The translations under genes were made by a program, and so were the position numbers. From Candidatus Oleimmundimicrobium sp. (lineage in GTDB: Bacteria; Actinomycetota; Aquicultoria; UBA3085; Oleimmundimicrobiaceae), in assembly GCF_030651595.1 (NCBI RefSeq), contig NZ_JAUSCH010000085.1:1-52721 (forward strand): a stretch of DNA of 52,721 bases, in the 5' to 3' direction. Positions 41,270 to 49,127 of the stretch are shown piece by piece. The notes below the pieces were generated by a model, which saw only the letters and a list, made by a program, of their open reading frames with translations, was not told the origin of the DNA and searched no databases. Every line of letters begins with the position of its first letter. The stretch's first letter is position 1.

Positions 41270-41929
41270 CTAAGATTTAAGATGTTTTCGGATCTTATCT
41301 TTCAACCATGATATCCAACTATCAATCCCATCAGCAGATTTACAAGAAATCTCAAAAATATTAATATCTGGATTCAAATTATTTACAGTTCCTTTAAGCC
41401 TATTTATATCAAAGTCAGTATAATCTAATAAATCAATTTTATTTAGAACAAGGACTTCCGACTCAATAAATATACGAGGATATTTAAGCGGCTTATCATC
41501 CCCCTCCGGGACACTCAATATAACCATCTTAACAGTTTCGCCTAAATCGAATTCCGCGGGGCAGACAAGATTTCCAACGTTTTCAATGATGATTAAGTCC
41601 GTCTCATCCAAATTAAGGAAACCTAGAGTACCGCGAATCATGTTTGCGTCAAGGTGACAAGCGCCACCCGTATTTATTTGAATCGTGGTAACACCATGCT
41701 CGCGGACCTTTTCAGCATCAACTTTTGAAGCAATATCTCCTTCAATTACGGCTATATTCAAGTCATTTTTTAAATTTTCAATGGTTTGCAAAATAAAACT
41801 GGTCTTCCCCGCCCCAGGAGAAGCCATTAAATTTATCACATAGATTCCTTTATCCTCAAAAATCTTCCTCAAATCGGCAGCAATTTTATTATTGGACGCT
41901 AAAATATTTTGCTGAAGCTTAATTTCCAT
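41270..41929 (-). CDS. hypB: Hydrogenase nickel-insertion GTPase HypB
   Basis: A 219-residue SIMIBI GTPase that delivers nickel to the hydrogenase large subunit together with HypA. Walker A is A-S-P-G-A-G-K-T, the metal site is GGACHLDA, and NVGNLVCPAEFDLGE and LNKIDLLDY complete the G domain. The N-terminal CxxCGC nickel motif and histidine stretch of some HypB proteins are absent. It is the last gene after hypA (17 bases apart). GGGAGG lies ahead of the ATG. Confidence 0.96.
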   Translation of the reverse strand: MEIKLQQNILASNNKIAADLRKIFEDKGIYVINLMASPGAGKTSFILQTIENLKNDLNIAVIEGDIASKVDAEKVREHGVTTIQINTGGACHLDANMIRGTLGFLNLDETDLIIIENVGNLVCPAEFDLGETVKMVILSVPEGDDKPLKYPRIFIESEVLVLNKIDLLDYTDFDINRLKGTVNNLNPDINIFEISCKSADGIDSWISWLKDKIRKHLKS

Positions 41930-41946: not shown

Positions 41947-42282
41947 TTACTCAATTTCGATAGCCGAAATTGCCAATTCTTTGCCCGCAATTATCTTCAT
42001 TCCTGTACCGCATTCGCATATAAAGTCGAGATTTTCCACCCTTTTTACCTTTCCGCAAAGAGGACACTTGGCTTGAAGCGGCACCTCCGCTATTTCCACT
42101 TCGGCACCACTAGCGAGAGTGTCCTTGCTCATTAATTCGAAGTAAAACTTAACACAATCTCCAACTATGTTTGTAAGCTCCCCCACCTCGATTTTCACCG
42201 TCTTTACTCTCGTTGCATCCCTTTTCTCTGCTTCAGCAAGAACTATAGACAAAATACTTTCAGTTATCGCCATTTCATGCAC
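41947..42282 (-). CDS. hypA: Hydrogenase nickel metallochaperone HypA
   Basis: A 111-residue HypA. The nickel site is the N-terminal M-H-E, so the GTG start (giving MHEMAITES) is required. The zinc domain has C-P-L-C and then C-E-C, where most HypA proteins have a second CxxC; the second pair is therefore C-x-C here. The C-terminal GKELAISAIEIE strand is typical. It lies between a maturation protease and hypB in what looks like one transcript. Confidence 0.94.
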   Translation of the reverse strand: MHEMAITESILSIVLAEAEKRDATRVKTVKIEVGELTNIVGDCVKFYFELMSKDTLASGAEVEIAEVPLQAKCPLCGKVKRVENLDFICECGTGMKIIAGKELAISAIEIE

Positions 42283-42341: not shown

Positions 42342-42821
42342 TCAGCCATCTGCTACATTGCTTCTAAGTTTTTCAACCTCTTCCAAAACCAACTCTATTA
42401 TCCTTGGAATTTTCTCTTGCAACTCAGAGGTTAGTTCCAAACCCAAATTTATCTCCTTCGGTTGTACCCCAAAAATTATCGTTTCGGGACATTTTCCAAG
42501 ATGTTCGGCCATCTTTAAAACTTCTAAAATCTCAACTTCATGAAGAGAGACTTTTTCTTTGGACTTCAACTTCACATCTTTGGGCCTAAACCTAAACATA
42601 TCACCTGGTTCCGAACCCGCCTCAACGGCATCCACAACAATCAGTTTATCCGCTTCTTGAACGGGATAAAGCAAATCAAAACCGGCTGTTCCTCCGTCAA
42701 TTAGTTCGATGTCGTTCGGCAAATCCATTTTTTCCATCGCTTGAACAACTCGAACACCAATGCCTTCATCTTTAAGGAGAATATTTCCGACACCCAAAAT
42801 AACTATTTTCTTGTTCGTCAA
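42342..42821 (-). CDS. Hydrogenase maturation protease with intact metal ligands
   Basis: A 159-residue HybD/HyaD-family endopeptidase that removes the C-terminal tail of the large subunit after nickel insertion. The three metal-sensing positions are present: Glu in LGVGNILLKDEGIGVRV, Asp in LIVVDAVEAGSEPGD and His in VSLHEVEILEVL. The start is TTG, preceded by AAAGG. A terminator upstream separates it from the structural genes, so it belongs with hypA and hypB. A second, diverged copy sits next to the large subunit. Confidence 0.93.
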   Translation of the reverse strand: MTNKKIVILGVGNILLKDEGIGVRVVQAMEKMDLPNDIELIDGGTAGFDLLYPVQEADKLIVVDAVEAGSEPGDMFRFRPKDVKLKSKEKVSLHEVEILEVLKMAEHLGKCPETIIFGVQPKEINLGLELTSELQEKIPRIIELVLEEVEKLRSNVADG

Positions 42822-42925: not shown

Positions 42926-42957
42926 ATATAGACCCCCGAAAGTGGGGGGGTCTATAT
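42926..42957 (-). terminator. Terminator of the hydrogenase structural operon
   Basis: ATATAGACCCCC and GGGGGTCTATAT form a perfect 12-base stem about 28 bases after the membrane-subunit stop. A weak T-rich sequence follows on the reverse strand. Confidence 0.75.
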
Positions 42958-42984: not shown

Positions 42985-43896
42985 TTACCTCACAACCTGG
43001 CCTCCATAGAGAAAGACCCATCTTACCATGAGTCCTCCCAAAAGCACCAAGATGGAAGCGATTGTGGCCATGCCCGTTCCTTTCCCATGAGCATCTTTAG
43101 ATGTCAATCCTTTTAACTCTATTGTCAGAGGAACGACAAGACCAATTGTAACTATGCCTATCCAGAAGGGGATAGCATAAGCTCCACTTAAAAGAACAGA
43201 GGCAGCTTCAGCCGCCCTTCCACCTGCAGCGTTTAATGTTATGAGAAGAATAGCAAAAGCTAACATCTCGATAACGATGACTATTGAGTCCGCTTTTTCG
43301 AGCAATCCCATAGAGAGCTCATCCTTCTTTTTGGAAATAGAAAGAATGAAAAGGATTAAAGCAAGACCGGTGGAAGATGCCGAGGCCAAAAAGACCACGG
43401 GCAACCAATTTACGCTCGACCACATGGGAACATTTTTCACGGCCAAAAGAACGCCCGTATATCCAGCGGTCAAAAAACCTAAGATAACACCAATTACCGA
43501 GAAGATCTTTCGGATACTATCTTTTCCCGCAAGACTCTTTATGATGGGCAAATCCTTGGTCTTTTCCTCCTCAGAGAGGAAGAAAGCCGGAACAATTACC
43601 CCGCCCACTATCGAAAATAGGGTAAGTACCCAGGTACCTTGGCTCATAAGAGAATTCGGTTTAAAGGTGATTATGAAATGCCAAAAATATAGCGGCCTTG
43701 CCAAATCCAAAACTAGAATAATAAGACTTACTACAATAATTGGCAAAACACAGTATGAGCCTATCTTAGCGACCCTTTTCATGCGGCTTCCGCCAAAAAG
43801 TTCAAAGAGAGCCCCTGTGTAGAAGCAGGCGCCGGCCAAACCACCAAGAAAGAGATAGACTGCCAAAAGATGGTGCCAATAGTGCGTTCCTTCCAT
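42985..43896 (-). CDS. NrfD/HybB-like membrane subunit of the hydrogenase
   Basis: A 303-residue polytopic membrane protein of the NrfD/PsrC family with about eight to nine helices. The opening GTHYWHHLLAVYLFLGGLAGACFYTGAL is typical, and ARPLYFWHFIITFKPNSLMSQGTWVL is the conserved quinone-site region. In Hyb-type hydrogenases the equivalent protein passes electrons to the menaquinone pool and binds no haem. The ATG is chosen, and its first base overlaps the stop of the iron-sulfur gene (TGATGG); a GTG lies three bases earlier. It ends the structural operon. Confidence 0.92.
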   Translation of the reverse strand: MEGTHYWHHLLAVYLFLGGLAGACFYTGALFELFGGSRMKRVAKIGSYCVLPIIVVSLIILVLDLARPLYFWHFIITFKPNSLMSQGTWVLTLFSIVGGVIVPAFFLSEEEKTKDLPIIKSLAGKDSIRKIFSVIGVILGFLTAGYTGVLLAVKNVPMWSSVNWLPVVFLASASSTGLALILFILSISKKKDELSMGLLEKADSIVIVIEMLAFAILLITLNAAGGRAAEAASVLLSGAYAIPFWIGIVTIGLVVPLTIELKGLTSKDAHGKGTGMATIASILVLLGGLMVRWVFLYGGQVVR

Positions 43897-44732
43897 CACT
43901 TGCCACCTCCTTTTTCCTTAGCTTCCTTCGCAACCAGCCAGTAGGGTACTATAGTAAGCCCTCCGGCGGCAAGCAAAGCGGTTAACCACTTTGCGGGCAT
44001 TGAAGCTGAAGAACGTTTGGGCTCATTGGGAAAACCGTAGACTTCGGGCTCGTCCTCCAAAAGATAGAGCCAAGCGGTCCCTCCCAAAACATCTTTGCCG
44101 TAAATTCTTGCTTTGCCTCCCACAATTGCCATTCTTTCTTCGGCCCTCTTTAAAACCTCTTCCTTGGTTCCGTAAAAAATCGCGTCGGTCGGACAGGCCT
44201 CCGCGCAAGCAGGAGGTAAACCCTTAGATACCCTATGACTGCAGAAGTTACACTTTTTCATTACCCCCGATTCAGGATCGAATCTTGGCACCCCGAAGGG
44301 GCACGCATAATGGCAATTCTTGCAGCCTATACAGATATCCTTATCTATCTTTACGATATCTCCTTCTCGTTTTATGGCCCCGGCAGCACAGGCATCGATG
44401 CAGCTCGCTTCGGCACAGTGGAAACACTGTACCTTCGTCTTTAGCCAGTTGGGCTCCTCTTCGGTTCCCAAGTTTTTAAACTTTACCGTGGTGAAGACGT
44501 TGCTTCCCAAATCCGGGGAATAATCATAGGTGCCCGAATTTTCATTCGTCTTTTTGCAAGCAATGGCGCAGGATAGACAACCAGCACAAAGACCGGGCTC
44601 AACGAGACAGGCATGCTTTCCCTTCGATTCGGCAAAAGCCTTCGTTAACTCGCCCAGACCAGTAACAACACCCGTTGTGGAGACAAGACCCAAACCCGCC
44701 ACCTTTAAAAAACTCTTTCGAGTAATCTTCAC
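43896..44732 (-). CDS. HybA-like four-cluster [4Fe-4S] electron-transfer subunit
   Basis: A 278-residue exported iron-sulfur protein. The N-terminus T-R-K-S-F-L-K with a following hydrophobic stretch resembles a Tat signal with RK in place of the usual RR, with a possible cleavage site after A-F-A. Sixteen cysteines form four [4Fe-4S] motifs: LCAGCLSCAIAC, QCFHCAEASCIDAC, ICIGCKNCHYAC, and KCNFC with PACAEAC. A C-terminal membrane helix (about 245-265) anchors it. It would carry electrons from the small subunit to the NrfD-type subunit. The GTG start overlaps the stop of the protease-like gene (GTGA). Confidence 0.94.
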   Translation of the reverse strand: MKITRKSFLKVAGLGLVSTTGVVTGLGELTKAFAESKGKHACLVEPGLCAGCLSCAIACKKTNENSGTYDYSPDLGSNVFTTVKFKNLGTEEEPNWLKTKVQCFHCAEASCIDACAAGAIKREGDIVKIDKDICIGCKNCHYACPFGVPRFDPESGVMKKCNFCSHRVSKGLPPACAEACPTDAIFYGTKEEVLKRAEERMAIVGGKARIYGKDVLGGTAWLYLLEDEPEVYGFPNEPKRSSASMPAKWLTALLAAGGLTIVPYWLVAKEAKEKGGGK

Positions 44733-45226
44733 TTTGTATCCTCACTCCTTTCTTTGGAATCTTCCTTTTTTGACCCGTGGTCGAACTCTTCTTTTATCCT
44801 CTCTATTATGGTAGGTATACTCTCCTGTAATTCCCTACTTAAACCCATTCCAACGTCAACTTCCTTTGGGACAACACTTACCACAACAATTTCAGGACAG
44901 TTTCCCCTTACTTTAACATCGTCTAGGGCGCTAAAGAGAGCCAGCTGATCTATCGAGGTATCTTCTACCTTGAGCGCCCTTTCAACCTCGCTTAAACCCG
45001 GTTTTAAACACGTCCCTGGCTTATCGTCCCTCTTTAAGATATTGACTATGATGAGCTTATCGGCCCTTTCTAAAAGGGGTAGAAAATCGCGTCCCACCAA
45101 TCCTCCGTCGACCACTTCCACATTTTTTGGCAAAATCTCTTTTGCCAGCTCGTTTACAACATAAATCCCGACTCCCTCGTCCCGGAGCAGGATATTCCCT
45201 ACCCCGAGAACGACTATCTTTTTCAA
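44729..45226 (-). CDS. Hydrogenase maturation protease-like protein with altered metal ligands
   Basis: A 165-residue HybD-fold protein between the large subunit and the HybA-like gene. The N-terminal VVLGVGNILLRDEGVGIYV keeps the first metal ligand (Glu). The second ligand block reads LIIVNILKRDDKPG, with Asn where Asp is expected, and the third reads TSIDQLALF, with Asp where His is expected. The C-terminal ESIPTIIERIKEE helix is conserved, and a charged tail follows. It may be specialised for the selenocysteine-containing precursor or be a chaperone. The start is TTG with AAAGGA nine bases upstream; an ATG at 45248-45250 directly after the large-subunit stop is an alternative. Confidence 0.85.
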   Translation of the reverse strand: MKKIVVLGVGNILLRDEGVGIYVVNELAKEILPKNVEVVDGGLVGRDFLPLLERADKLIIVNILKRDDKPGTCLKPGLSEVERALKVEDTSIDQLALFSALDDVKVRGNCPEIVVVSVVPKEVDVGMGLSRELQESIPTIIERIKEEFDHGSKKEDSKERSEDTK

Positions 45227-45253
45227 GGAGCCTTTTCCTTTAAACGTCATCAA

Positions 45254-46840
45254 TTAAGTTACCTTGAACTTAAGGATTTCATTGGTCTCTGGATGCACCA
45301 CGTGCACCGCGCAACCAATTCACGGGTCAAAAGACCGCACGACCCTTACTAAATTGATTGGGTTGTGCGGATCCGGAACGGGAGTTCCAACGAGCGCTTC
45401 CTCTATTGGACCGCGAACTCCGTTATCATCTCTTGGGTTAGCATTCCAAATAGTAGCGGGAACACACTGGTAATTCTTGATTTTTCCATTTTCTATCTCT
45501 ACCCAGTGACCCAACGCTCCACGGTGAGCTTCAACTAAACCGGCACCCTTTCCATTTTTGGGAACGGCTACGTCATTACATACCGGCTCACCTGGTTTCA
45601 ATTCAAGCAACCACTGCTGCATGCCCTCGCAAACCATGAGACACTCATAGGCCCTGGCCGCGTGCCTTGCAACCGCCGATGGATGAACTCCAATTGGAGT
45701 TATGATTTGAGCCAAGGTCTTCTTGGTCCCATCGGCCAAGGTAACTCCGGGGTCTTTACCTTCCGCGGTGGTAACAAGCATTCTAGCTAAAGCGCCCGCC
45801 TCGGAAGAACGTCCATCGTATCTCGGCGCCTTGATGAACGAGTAAGCGCCTTCTTTGTTGATATCAAGAATGGTTTTTCCTTCAGAAGGATGTCTATCCG
45901 TACACTCATCGGTATACTTCGAATACTTGACATTTTCCCTTATCTTCTCGGGATCGAACGGGATGTGCTTCAATTCTCCACCGGCAATGTGCCCGGACCT
46001 TAAGTACCTGTTGTTATAGTCGCCAGACTCACCGAGGTCAAACATTCCGTAGGAGATAAAGTTACCGGTACCGAAGCCGACCTTCAAGTCATGCAAAGGT
46101 TTCAGCGGACCGGTGCCAAGGGTTAGAACGTCATTTAGATAAACTCTTCTTACCCACTCGGTTATCTCATCCAGATATCCTTTAAACCTCGATATCCTAT
46201 CCGCGGTAACTCGAACGGTAACCCCTCCCGGAACGTATGTTGCGTGGTGAGGCATCTTCCCACCGAAGATGGCGAGCATTTCCTGAGTCCTCTTCCTCGT
46301 CTCGAGCCCCTGCAGATAGTGAGCAACCGCAGCAGTGACGATGTTCGGATCGGCCACGCAGAACTCGTCCGGCTCATACCGGGGAGTAAGGGGAGCGGTA
46401 TCGCCGGCTTGAACAAGCCCTACGATTTTTCTTTTAACCTCAAGAAGCCCCTCATCGTTTCCGGCATAGTCTGCAACCGCCATTATGTCTAAGTAGTCCA
46501 AAGCCGCCAGATGATAAAAGTGCAAAATAGCCGATTGAACAAAGTTTGCGCCCGCAACAAGGTTCCTGATGATTCTTCCATTGTCGGGAACCTCTGCCCC
46601 AAAGGCATTGTCCAAACCCTGAACGCTGGCCAACATGTGCTCGGCCGGGCAAACACCACATATTCTTTGGGTAATTATGGCGGCATCTCGTGGGTCTCTT
46701 CCCTGGAGGATGAGCTCGATTCCTCTAAAGAGGGTCCCTTTGCTCCAAGCGTCCTTTACGACACCGTTTTCAACCTCAACTTCGATTGCCAGGTGACCTT
46801 CAATCCTGGTAACCGGATCAATTATGATTCTTTCTCCCAT
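45254..46840 (-). CDS. [NiFeSe] hydrogenase large subunit, selenoprotein (TGA = Sec at residue 507)
   Basis: A 528-residue large subunit holding the Ni-Fe site. The N-terminal ligand motif is R59-I-C61-G-V-C64 with His68. The frame meets TGA at 45320-45322 directly after V-V-R-S-F-D-P. Reading through gives D-P-U507-I-G-C510-A-V-H513, the full C-terminal ligand motif with selenocysteine in place of the first cysteine. A 15-residue tail (V514-T528) follows to TAA at 45254-45256, as expected for a precursor cut after His513. Stopping at the TGA would lose two nickel ligands. A SECIS-like hairpin lies at 45281-45319. The ATG directly follows the small-subunit stop. Selenocysteine machinery (selA, selB, selC, selD) must be encoded outside this window. 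Confidence 0.95.
45281..45319 (-). promoter_or_regulatory. Bacterial SECIS-like hairpin directly after the Sec TGA
   Basis: On the reverse strand the sequence right after TGA forms an outer stem ATTGGT/ACCAAT and an apical stem GGTGCAC/GTGCA-T-CC with one bulged T and the triloop GTG. The apical stem begins 11 bases after the TGA, the spacing known for SelB-binding hairpins such as in E. coli fdhF. The loop contains the GU expected at the tip. The fold was done by eye. Confidence 0.7.
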
Positions 46841-47941
46841 TTACTCTTCACCCTCCTTTTCTTCAGATTTTGTTTTGCCGCCAATTGCGTATCCTCCCGC
46901 AACACCAGCGGCGGCTCCAACGACCGCACCGAGAGCGGCGGCTGTTCCTGCACCCATACCTTCCTCATGCTCCACTTCTGCCTCAAGAGCTTCTTTATAC
47001 TTCGCAACCTCCGGGATGGGCGCATAGAGCGAGATTATTTTTCCGTCAGCATCTTTAAAATCAGGAAAATCGGGCTCCACACAACCGGCGCAGGGAGCGC
47101 TTGCGGCTATGCAGTAGTTCGTTCCGCTATTCCAGAGACGGCTGGGACAATCGGCGTGAGTGACCGGGCCTCGACAGCCCTTTCCACCCATACAGTAGTC
47201 CATCTCGGTCTCTTCTTCACCGAAATTTTTTACCCAGTTACCGAGCTCGTAACCAGTGCGACGCTGGCAATTCTCGTGAATTAGCTTTCCGTAGAACATC
47301 TTGGGACGACCGTGCTCATCTAACTCAGGTACCTCGCCAAATAAGAGGATATGAGTTATGGTCCCCACTATCCAATCCGGATGAGCCGGACATCCCGGAA
47401 TATTTACCACCGTGCCTCCGACAACATCCTTTAAACCCTTGCATCCCGTAGGGTTCGGATCTGCCGCGGGAATCCCTCCATAACAAGCACAGCTACCAAC
47501 GGCCACATTATATACGGAGTTGGCAGCAGCTTCTTTGGCGATTTCCATCACAGGCCTTCCGCCAATCATGCAGTACGCTCCATTCTCAGCAGTAGGAATG
47601 GCTCCTTCCATCACAAAAACGTAACCACCCTCGTGAACAATATCCTCAAACTGTTTTTCCGCCACATGACCTGAGGCAGCCATAATAGTTTCCATATAAC
47701 GGATAGATAAGATGTCTAAGATAATCTCGGCGGGGGTGGGATGCTCAGAGTTAATCAATGAAACTGTGCAGCCCGTGCAACCAGACCCATTTAACCAAAG
47801 AACCGCCGGTTTCTTCGCAGCTTTCTCTAAAGCAGCCGCAATCTGAGGTATATACAACTCAGATAGACCAAGCAAAGCAGCCATACTTGCTGAACATTTA
47901 ATGAAATCCCTACGACTTATTCCTTTTAAAATTTCCCTCAC
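46841..47941 (-). CDS. [NiFeSe] hydrogenase small subunit, Tat-exported
   Basis: A 366-residue small subunit. The Tat motif is S-R-R-D-F-I-K at 9-15, with a hydrophobic stretch to about residue 38. Proximal-cluster cysteines are in SGCTGC (55 and 58), GSCACYGG and IPGCPAHPDW. Distal-cluster ligands are His and Cys in HENCQRR and MGGKGCRGPVTHADC. The medial site has C-P-S-R-L-W, N-Y-C and P-C-A-G-C, so four cysteines are available and a [4Fe-4S] cluster is expected, as in known [NiFeSe] enzymes. An Ala/Gly-rich hydrophobic C-terminal segment (about 325-350) probably anchors it. The GTG start with GGGAGGTG nine bases upstream is preferred over a GTG inside that site. Confidence 0.95.
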   Translation of the reverse strand: MREILKGISRRDFIKCSASMAALLGLSELYIPQIAAALEKAAKKPAVLWLNGSGCTGCTVSLINSEHPTPAEIILDILSIRYMETIMAASGHVAEKQFEDIVHEGGYVFVMEGAIPTAENGAYCMIGGRPVMEIAKEAAANSVYNVAVGSCACYGGIPAADPNPTGCKGLKDVVGGTVVNIPGCPAHPDWIVGTITHILLFGEVPELDEHGRPKMFYGKLIHENCQRRTGYELGNWVKNFGEEETEMDYCMGGKGCRGPVTHADCPSRLWNSGTNYCIAASAPCAGCVEPDFPDFKDADGKIISLYAPIPEVAKYKEALEAEVEHEEGMGAGTAAALGAVVGAAAGVAGGYAIGGKTKSEEKEGEE

Positions 47942-48134
47942 TACAACTAACACCTCCCTTAATTTTTAAATCTTCTTAAAACTTAATGATTGAATAAAAA
48001 TAACCTTTCCCAAAAACTATCTCACTAGTTCTTATCACCTCCCTCTTTTTGAGAAATAATTCACACGCTTTTGACAAAAAATAAAATCATACTTTAAACT
48101 GATATTTTAAAATTGTATCGCTTATCCATTCTGT

Positions 48135-48254: not shown

Positions 48255-49127
48255 ATGGAAAAACTCGATAAAGAAAAGTTAAGAGGCCAAAGAAGGAGCC
48301 ACGAAGAAAGCTTGGCACACGATTTAATCATGGCAACTGACGAAACCGACCTTGTCTCTTTGCAAATTCGAAGCCGCTTTCTGGATTTTGATCTCAGCAA
48401 GCCCTTGACCGCAATCATAATAGATTGGGCTCAACCGGAAGAAGAACAGAATTTTCCACAAGATGAAGAGAAGCTATTGGAGCTGCTCCATTCATTTTTC
48501 GAAGTATCGACTCATCTGGCTGCCATGGCCGGCTCCACAAAATCGATGATTTTAAAGACACTGCAGATGGCAGACGCCCCAATCATAGCTCTCAAAAAAA
48601 AGGGGCCTCTTCAAGAAAATCACCATATCGGAAACCTGTGTGAACTGGGCCAGGCCTTACATCAATACATTTACGAAAAATTAAAACAAGATGTTGTGAT
48701 AGGTTTGGGAAACTACTACGAAGGAAGTTTTTCAGCAAAGAAATCCTTCCGCGAAGCGACATTGGCGCTAGAACTCGGAAAGAACTTTGACAGAGAAAGT
48801 AGAGTTTTTCACATCAGCAACTACTTTTTAACAAATTTACTCTCATCCGTCCAAAGACCATATAGAAAAGACTTTTTGTGGGGTACCCTAAAACCTCTCC
48901 AAAACGAGGAGGAATTAATTAAAACTATAGAAATCTTCTTCGAAACAAACATGAATATTTCGCTTACCGCAAAAAAACTTTTTGCCCACAGAAACACACT
49001 TATATATAGATTAAATAAAGTTAGGAATTTAACGGGTCTTGACCCTAAAAACTTTCATGATGCCATACGACTCTATGTCGCCTTAAAACTCTATTACCTA
49101 GAACAAGCGCAAGTATTCATGGATTAA
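48255..49127 (+). CDS. CdaR/PucR-type transcriptional regulator
   Basis: A 290-residue regulator. The middle (about 130-190) resembles the CdaR GGDEF-like domain, with VVIGLGNYYEGSFSAKKSFREATLALELG. The C-terminal PucR helix-turn-helix (about 225-285) has ETNMNISLTAKKLFAHRNTLIYRLNKVRNLTGLDPKN. The N-terminal part has no recognised sensor domain. AAGGAAT precedes the ATG. It is divergent from the hydrogenase operon and ends convergently with hypE (four-base overlap), so it is flanked on both sides by hydrogenase genes and probably controls them. The signal it senses is unknown. Confidence 0.85.
   Translation: MEKLDKEKLRGQRRSHEESLAHDLIMATDETDLVSLQIRSRFLDFDLSKPLTAIIIDWAQPEEEQNFPQDEEKLLELLHSFFEVSTHLAAMAGSTKSMILKTLQMADAPIIALKKKGPLQENHHIGNLCELGQALHQYIYEKLKQDVVIGLGNYYEGSFSAKKSFREATLALELGKNFDRESRVFHISNYFLTNLLSSVQRPYRKDFLWGTLKPLQNEEELIKTIEIFFETNMNISLTAKKLFAHRNTLIYRLNKVRNLTGLDPKNFHDAIRLYVALKLYYLEQAQVFMD

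Follow-up and report, generated by a model that had tools for sequence, protein, structure and literature searches.

Nickel in the substrate is described as the recognition signal for the maturation proteases of the HyaD/HybD type (PMC12134894, PMC2670836), and the likely metal residues of E. coli HybD are given as Glu16, Asp62 and His93 (PMC2670836). A further region, the HOXBOX, which reads D(G/C/F)GT in most of these proteases, is thought to help bind the substrate (PMC2670836). HyaD and HydD are reported to form stable complexes with the uncleaved large subunit (PMC5299533), which indicates that binding without immediate cutting occurs in the HyaD/HybD family. According to the same report, the complex went undetected in a Salmonella strain devoid of cofactor synthesis, suggesting that the cofactor is necessary for binding; a copy without ligands would thus have to bind by other contacts. 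The catalytic residues of these enzymes are unsettled in the literature consulted, so the loss of a ligand is no proof that cutting has been lost.

Here we describe a relative of these proteases in which two of the three ligands are replaced, encoded in a 52,721-nt stretch of DNA from Candidatus Oleimmundimicrobium sp. (Oleimmundimicrobiaceae; positions 1-52,721 of contig NZ_JAUSCH010000085.1, assembly GCF_030651595.1). The whole stretch is referred to as the window, and its genome as G000. On the minus strand, the gene for the small subunit of a hydrogenase is followed by those for the large subunit (hysA), the diverged protease, an Fe-S subunit and an NrfD-like membrane subunit. The features of the locus are as follows.

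46841..47953, minus strand: hydrogenase small subunit (TIGR00391, 323.8 bits; cut-off 179.5)
45254..46840, minus strand: [NiFeSe] hydrogenase large subunit, hysA (NF033181, 744.2 bits; cut-off 600)
45281..45319, minus strand: SECIS-like hairpin just 3' of the UGA (folding against shuffles, modest)
44729..45250, minus strand: diverged HyaD/HybD-type endopeptidase relative with E17, N62 and D93, hereafter the END protein (PF01750, TIGR00072, HybD alignment, AlphaFold2)
45176..45181, minus strand: codons of D16 and of the kept ligand E17 in the END gene (sequence, translation, HybD alignment)
43896..44732, minus strand: Fe-S subunit similar to FDH-beta and HybA (scores under the cut-offs of those families)
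42985..43899, minus strand: NrfD-like membrane subunit (TIGR03148, 117.2 bits, below the cut-off of 347.6)
42926..42957, minus strand: intrinsic-terminator-like stem-loop with a T-run, separating the structural operon from the unit of the intact protease, hypA and hypB
42342..42821, minus strand: second HyaD/HybD-type protease, with ligands E, D and H, upstream of the hypA-hypB-like genes
41947-42282, minus strand: HypA-like gene, following the intact protease (assigned by eye)
41270-41929, minus strand: HypB-like gene, following the HypA-like gene (assigned by eye)

The product of hysA is predicted to be a [NiFeSe] large subunit, with a putative selenocysteine (Sec) in a C-terminal DPUxxCxxH motif (DPUIGCAVH, in-frame TGA at 45320-45322, minus strand) followed by VVHPETNEILKFKVT, a 15-residue tail that from its sequence appears to be of the cleavable kind. 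Relatives of this large subunit with one TGA were found in the genus-mate genome G001, in G004, which belongs to another genus of the same family, and in G012. A SelB homologue scores above the curated cut-off in the window genome; SelB homologues are also present in G002 and G003, two genomes without a detected [NiFe] large subunit. The same main hairpin was observed 3' of the UGA in G000, G001 and G004 (z of −1.79, −2.03 and −2.47), a modest signal given that 12, 9 and 5 of 200 shuffles, respectively, fold equally well. Contig 33 of G002 (L161:1-943) begins within an NrfD-like gene, after which come an intact protease and hypA- and hypB-like genes; hydrogenase structural genes, none of which was found by search in G002, may fall in an assembly gap. 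Divergent from the small-subunit gene of the window lies an ORF (48255-49127, plus strand) which, by eye from its AKKLFAHRNTLIYRLNKV stretch, we take to encode a PucR/CdaR-like helix-turn-helix regulator, and in L044 and L110 the operon is likewise preceded by a similar ORF.

The sequence-only reading of this DNA had recognized a clear HybD-type fold in the gene behind hysA, with the Asp and His ligands replaced by Asn and Asp, and both observations were borne out. The translation of positions 44732-45253 (minus strand) contains the segments GNILLRDEG, LIIVNIL and TSIDQL, and a HMMER alignment with E. coli HybD (1cfz; E value of 3.3e-17) places Asn62 opposite HybD Asp62 and Asp93 opposite HybD His93, the Glu16 of HybD being kept as Glu17. 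Of the three ligands of a functional maturation endopeptidase (E/D, D and H), the END protein has thus kept E and exchanged D for N and H for D. Its scores with PF01750 (72 bits; cut-off 23) and TIGR00072 (110.4 bits; cut-off 47.45) place it in the HycI/HybD superfamily. The AlphaFold2 model (mean pLDDT of 86.4) has HybD 1cfz as its best match in the PDB (TM of 0.78/0.80; Z of 21.0 over 152 residues), and the matches outside HycI/HybD, CRS2 and peptidyl-tRNA hydrolases at Z of 10-13, share the fold only. The END protein therefore resembles HybD (1cfz/2kml) in fold, in length, in its GxGN-LL-DEG motif with Glu and in the position of its gene beside that of the large subunit, but differs from it by the two substitutions; compared with proteases of the HyaD/HybD type, it also has Leu or Met for the Thr of DGGT and new arginines at positions 46 and 66.

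The initial delimitation of the gene, 44729-45226, is correct for its end but probably not for its start, which we place at an ATG at 45250, 24 nt farther upstream and 3 nt past the hysA stop codon, with a matching ATG in the genus-mate. In G004, no ATG, GTG or TTG occurs from the hysA stop to the first conserved residues (L110:6905-7020); the frame is open upstream into the end of hysA, where the nearest in-frame starts lie, near the Sec codon. On the other side, the stop of the END gene and the start of the Fe-S gene overlap by 4 nt, and the location of the diverged copy inside the structural operon, between hysA and the Fe-S gene, is as first described.

The second protease of the window also proved to be as first read, keeping all three ligands (DEG, VVDAV and SLHEV). 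It belongs to the same family as the END protein, from which it differs by its full ligands and by adjoining the hypA-hypB-like genes, and the two proteins are 42% identical (62/147). The stem-loop that precedes it folds strongly (z of −5.18), and the scan for consensus terminators was overall at chance level, with 9 sites against a shuffle mean of 7.9; given this intervening stem-loop, the intact protease is probably a transcription unit separate from the structural operon. The END protein scores under the cut-offs of TIGR00140 (97 versus 151.8 bits) and of NF045519, the profile of NiFeSe maturation proteases (94.1 versus 190 bits), and the intact copy scores 147.5 and 131 bits, respectively. 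Because the intact copy is also just under the cut-off of TIGR00140, this threshold fails to separate the two copies.

The searches of G000, G001 and G004 (95, 97 and 100% complete) each yielded one [NiFe] large subunit along with two family members, of which one has full ligands and the other is E-N-D. In G004, the END copy is located directly behind hysA, and a separate contig carries the intact copy together with hypA-hypB-like genes. G006 has two large-subunit genes and as many family members, whereas a single full-ligand family member was found with one Sec large subunit in each of G012, G017 and G021. No END protein was found in G012 despite its similar Sec enzyme, which indicates that the END protein is not essential for this type of enzyme. 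In G012 (L044), the Sec large-subunit gene is separated from the Fe-S/NrfD-like genes by a formate-dehydrogenase-like gene, which takes the position that the diverged protease has in the window. Genes of this kind, recognized by eye and containing an in-frame TGA (ARIUHSSTV), are located at L044:8100-11204 and from L110:11955 onward.

We surveyed the ligand states of the family in 308 records, which comprise the best ~30 loci per genome search, 76 loci from the GTDB contig collection and some further stretches. Relatives of the large subunit came from 99 relative genomes and from the 76 contig-collection loci; further family members came from the class (36 genomes) and the phylum (396 genomes) of the window, from the phylum to which a Thermincola genome belongs (398 genomes), from the order of a Desulfovibrio genome, searched with NF045519 (199 genomes), and from the phylum of a Nitrospirota genome, searched with L208 as the query (295 genomes). 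A family profile grown from the two copies of the window retrieved 276 ORFs, 187 of them distinct, from these records (L308-L310 being outside the census). The 187 proteins, which represent best-match lists (neighbourhoods of the large subunit, the END protein and L208, and top matches of NF045519) and not a random sample, divide into 182 with D/E-D-H, three with E-N-D and two with D-D-A. The E-N-D proteins are those of the window, the genus-mate G001 and G004, and all share the same residue pair, at positions where the other proteins have Asp in 184/184 and His in 182/184 cases. A profile of the three END proteins gives these three 278.9-319.5 bits; its next match reaches 139.5 bits in their own phylum and 138.4 bits in that of Thermincola, with no further END protein in the 794 genomes searched (396 and 398, respectively). 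The E-N-D state is a trait of one lineage, so far one small bacterial family. In the open-access literature, the titles and abstract openings among the matches listed mention no HycI/HybD-type protein without these ligands.

The two D-D-A proteins of the census, L208:951-1427 (identical to L278) and L279:1501-1992, are from the Nitrospirota genomes G402 and G1164. They resemble the END proteins by a lost ligand and by the proximity of another family member, but differ in that His alone is lost and in being in tandem with the other copy. In both genomes another family member directly adjoins the His-less protein, and in G402 (L309:7206-8214) this neighbour is intact by eye; by eye, no large-subunit-like ORF was found among those of at least 150 amino acids at L309:3000-12500 of G402. 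In these Nitrospirota, a twin has lost a ligand independently of the END lineage.

By the pattern of its substitutions, the END gene is under purifying selection and does not appear to be decaying. Between the genus-mates, its dN/dS is ~0.19 (0.185), compared to 0.065 (intact copy) and 0.051 (large subunit), values that come from one genome pair because dS between genera is saturated. Between genera, END proteins share 52-54% identity, both ligand substitutions are kept and the frame is open in all three genomes. Residues R46, K65, R66, D67, S91 and Q94 are likewise kept; R46 and R66 occur in 3/3 END proteins and 0/184 others, whereas S91 and Q94 are frequent throughout the family and 15/101 others have K65. 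At the Thr position of the HOXBOX, the END proteins have Leu or Met, and the other proteins have Thr (74/101) or Val (23/101). The rim of the pocket is thus conserved yet remodelled (VGRDF, VNxxKRD and TSxDQLA). Within windows of nine residues around each of the three ligands together with the HOXBOX region, identity between genera is 25/36 for the END copy and 27/36 for the intact copy, compared to 15/36 (G000) and 14/36 (G004) between the two copies; outside these windows the corresponding values are 54/111, 62/110 and 45/110. Fisher tests for the END copy give a non-significant p of 0.13 with the ligand windows alone and 0.035 once the HOXBOX window is added, the values of the intact copy being 0.051 and 0.075; the comparison is therefore based on the counts and not on these p values. 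The windows are no more diverged between the copies than the rest of the protein (15/36 versus 45/110 in G000), and the pocket of the END protein seems to have changed and then been held, though it changed no more than the protein did elsewhere.

In a tree of 38 rows and 160 columns, the three END proteins are placed next to the G012/G024 protease, with support values (83/74) that do not make the placement firm. According to AU tests, a grouping of the END proteins with their own family's intact copies is not rejected (p-AU of 0.244), nor are groupings with operon proteases of the Thermincola type (0.20) or with the copies of family 3 plus family 1 (0.265). In L005 and the Thermincola group, hysA is followed by the gene for a standard protease, and this slot is hence used by proteases elsewhere. 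The END copy would either have diverged in the operon or be a recent duplicate, and the tree favours neither.

We put at about an even chance the interpretation that the END protein is a conserved pseudo-endopeptidase, a holder or proofreading chaperone that does not cleave the precursor of the large subunit, with cutting left to the intact copy. The earlier suggestion that one copy is a chaperone while the other cuts fits the count of one large subunit and two family members in three of three genomes. The END copy would be made together with the structural subunits, would bind the unprocessed precursor around its C-terminal DPUxxCxxH without cutting it, and would hold or proofread it during the insertion of cofactor and nickel; once nickel is in place, the intact copy would take off the 15-residue tail. 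With the fold for docking kept and two nickel-reading residues gone, binding would be expected without the trigger to cut. If cutting of the tail requires that nickel be recognized first, the intact copy would be the natural cutter and the END copy would be left with a non-cutting role. This interpretation is suggested by the double substitution held across two genera, the purifying selection, the conserved pocket and the arginines R46 and R66 confined to the END proteins, by the contrast between two family members per large subunit in G000, G001 and G004 and one in G012, G017 and G021, and by the position of the END gene with its 4-nt overlap and the stem-loop ahead of the intact copy; the stable complexes of HyaD and HydD with an uncleaved large subunit offer a precedent. 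Counting against it are the constraint on the END gene, looser than on the intact copy in the one genome pair compared, pocket windows that diverge between the copies no more than the remaining sequence, the absence of an ordinary start codon at the expected position in G004, the similar Sec enzyme of G012 for which no END protein was found, and the apparent need for cofactor in the Salmonella complex. A more specific version, which we hold more tentatively, is that of a dedicated [NiFeSe] chaperone holding the precursor independently of metal, in which Arg and Lys replace the nickel that active relatives recognize. Speculatively, R46, K65 and R66 would be salt-bridged to E17 and D93 in place of a metal, making the pocket independent of Ni.

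Alternatively, the END protein could still process its own precursor, perhaps with relaxed checking of nickel, by binding or sensing the metal through the oxygen ligands of E17 and D93 (with N62). E17 is indeed kept, D93 is a possible ligand, the pocket is conserved and the same slot is occupied by full-ligand proteases in L005 and the Thermincola group. We nevertheless consider it unlikely, given that Asp and His are so nearly invariant in the rest of the family and that all three genomes, in which no other [NiFe] large subunit was found, have kept a full-ligand copy.

It is improbable that the END protein is an adaptation to selenium, whereby the Sec-Ni site requires different recognition residues. 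The sequence-only reading had suggested that the diverged copy may sense a Sec-Ni site differently; it named tracking of Sec-containing large subunits as the check and common occurrence of the same substitutions beside Cys-containing ones as the refutation. The Sec and Cys labels derive from a search for the motif up to 6 kb away on the same strand, and 40 of the 187 proteins had no large subunit on the stretch examined. Standard ligands were observed in 36 of the 39 family members near a Sec large subunit, namely 23 of the 23 counted in the Desulfovibrio order, the two intact copies of the window and its genus-mate, and 11 others. Near a Cys large subunit, all 108 members are standard; the substitutions are absent there (0/108), and that refuting condition did not arise. 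The NF045519 proteases of the Desulfovibrio order resemble the END protein in that the gene adjoins that of the Sec large subunit served, but their top 30 loci keep D/E-D-H. Different sensing of the Sec-Ni site is hence unsupported as a general rule, all the more so as in G012, G017 and G021 a Sec large subunit was found with one full-ligand member, and general tracking of Sec is rejected, all three END cases being from one family whose genomes also keep a standard copy. A tie to Sec specific to this lineage could nonetheless exist, because all three END cases adjoin a Sec large subunit; in D. vulgaris, exchanging Sec for Cys has also been reported to reduce the incorporation of nickel (Marques 2017, as cited in PMC10362691).

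We find it very improbable that the END protein acts on the intact protease, as the partner in a heterodimer or as a competitor, and not on the large subunit: the two copies co-occur in three of three genomes, but they probably belong to different transcription units and are on different contigs in G004. Decay of a duplicate without function, which would agree with a dN/dS roughly threefold higher than in the intact copy, a long branch in the tree and the unclear start codon of G004, has the least to recommend it and is largely refuted by conservation across genera, the frame being open in three genomes with dN/dS well below 1 and the double substitution and new arginines being kept at 52-54% identity.

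The loss of two ligands in this operon-borne copy is confirmed, the division of roles between a chaperone and a cutter is plausible, and judging from available sequences a ligand-poor twin of this kind is so far seen in one family. For annotation, it carries a warning: the END protein is well above the Pfam cut-off, yet such a score need not mean a working protease. The three residues considered here are those through which maturation proteases are believed to sense nickel in the precursor, and an END copy and a complete copy on a single shared substrate would allow one to ask whether binding and cutting are separable. The END protein also raises the question of what keeps the precursor open before the arrival of nickel.
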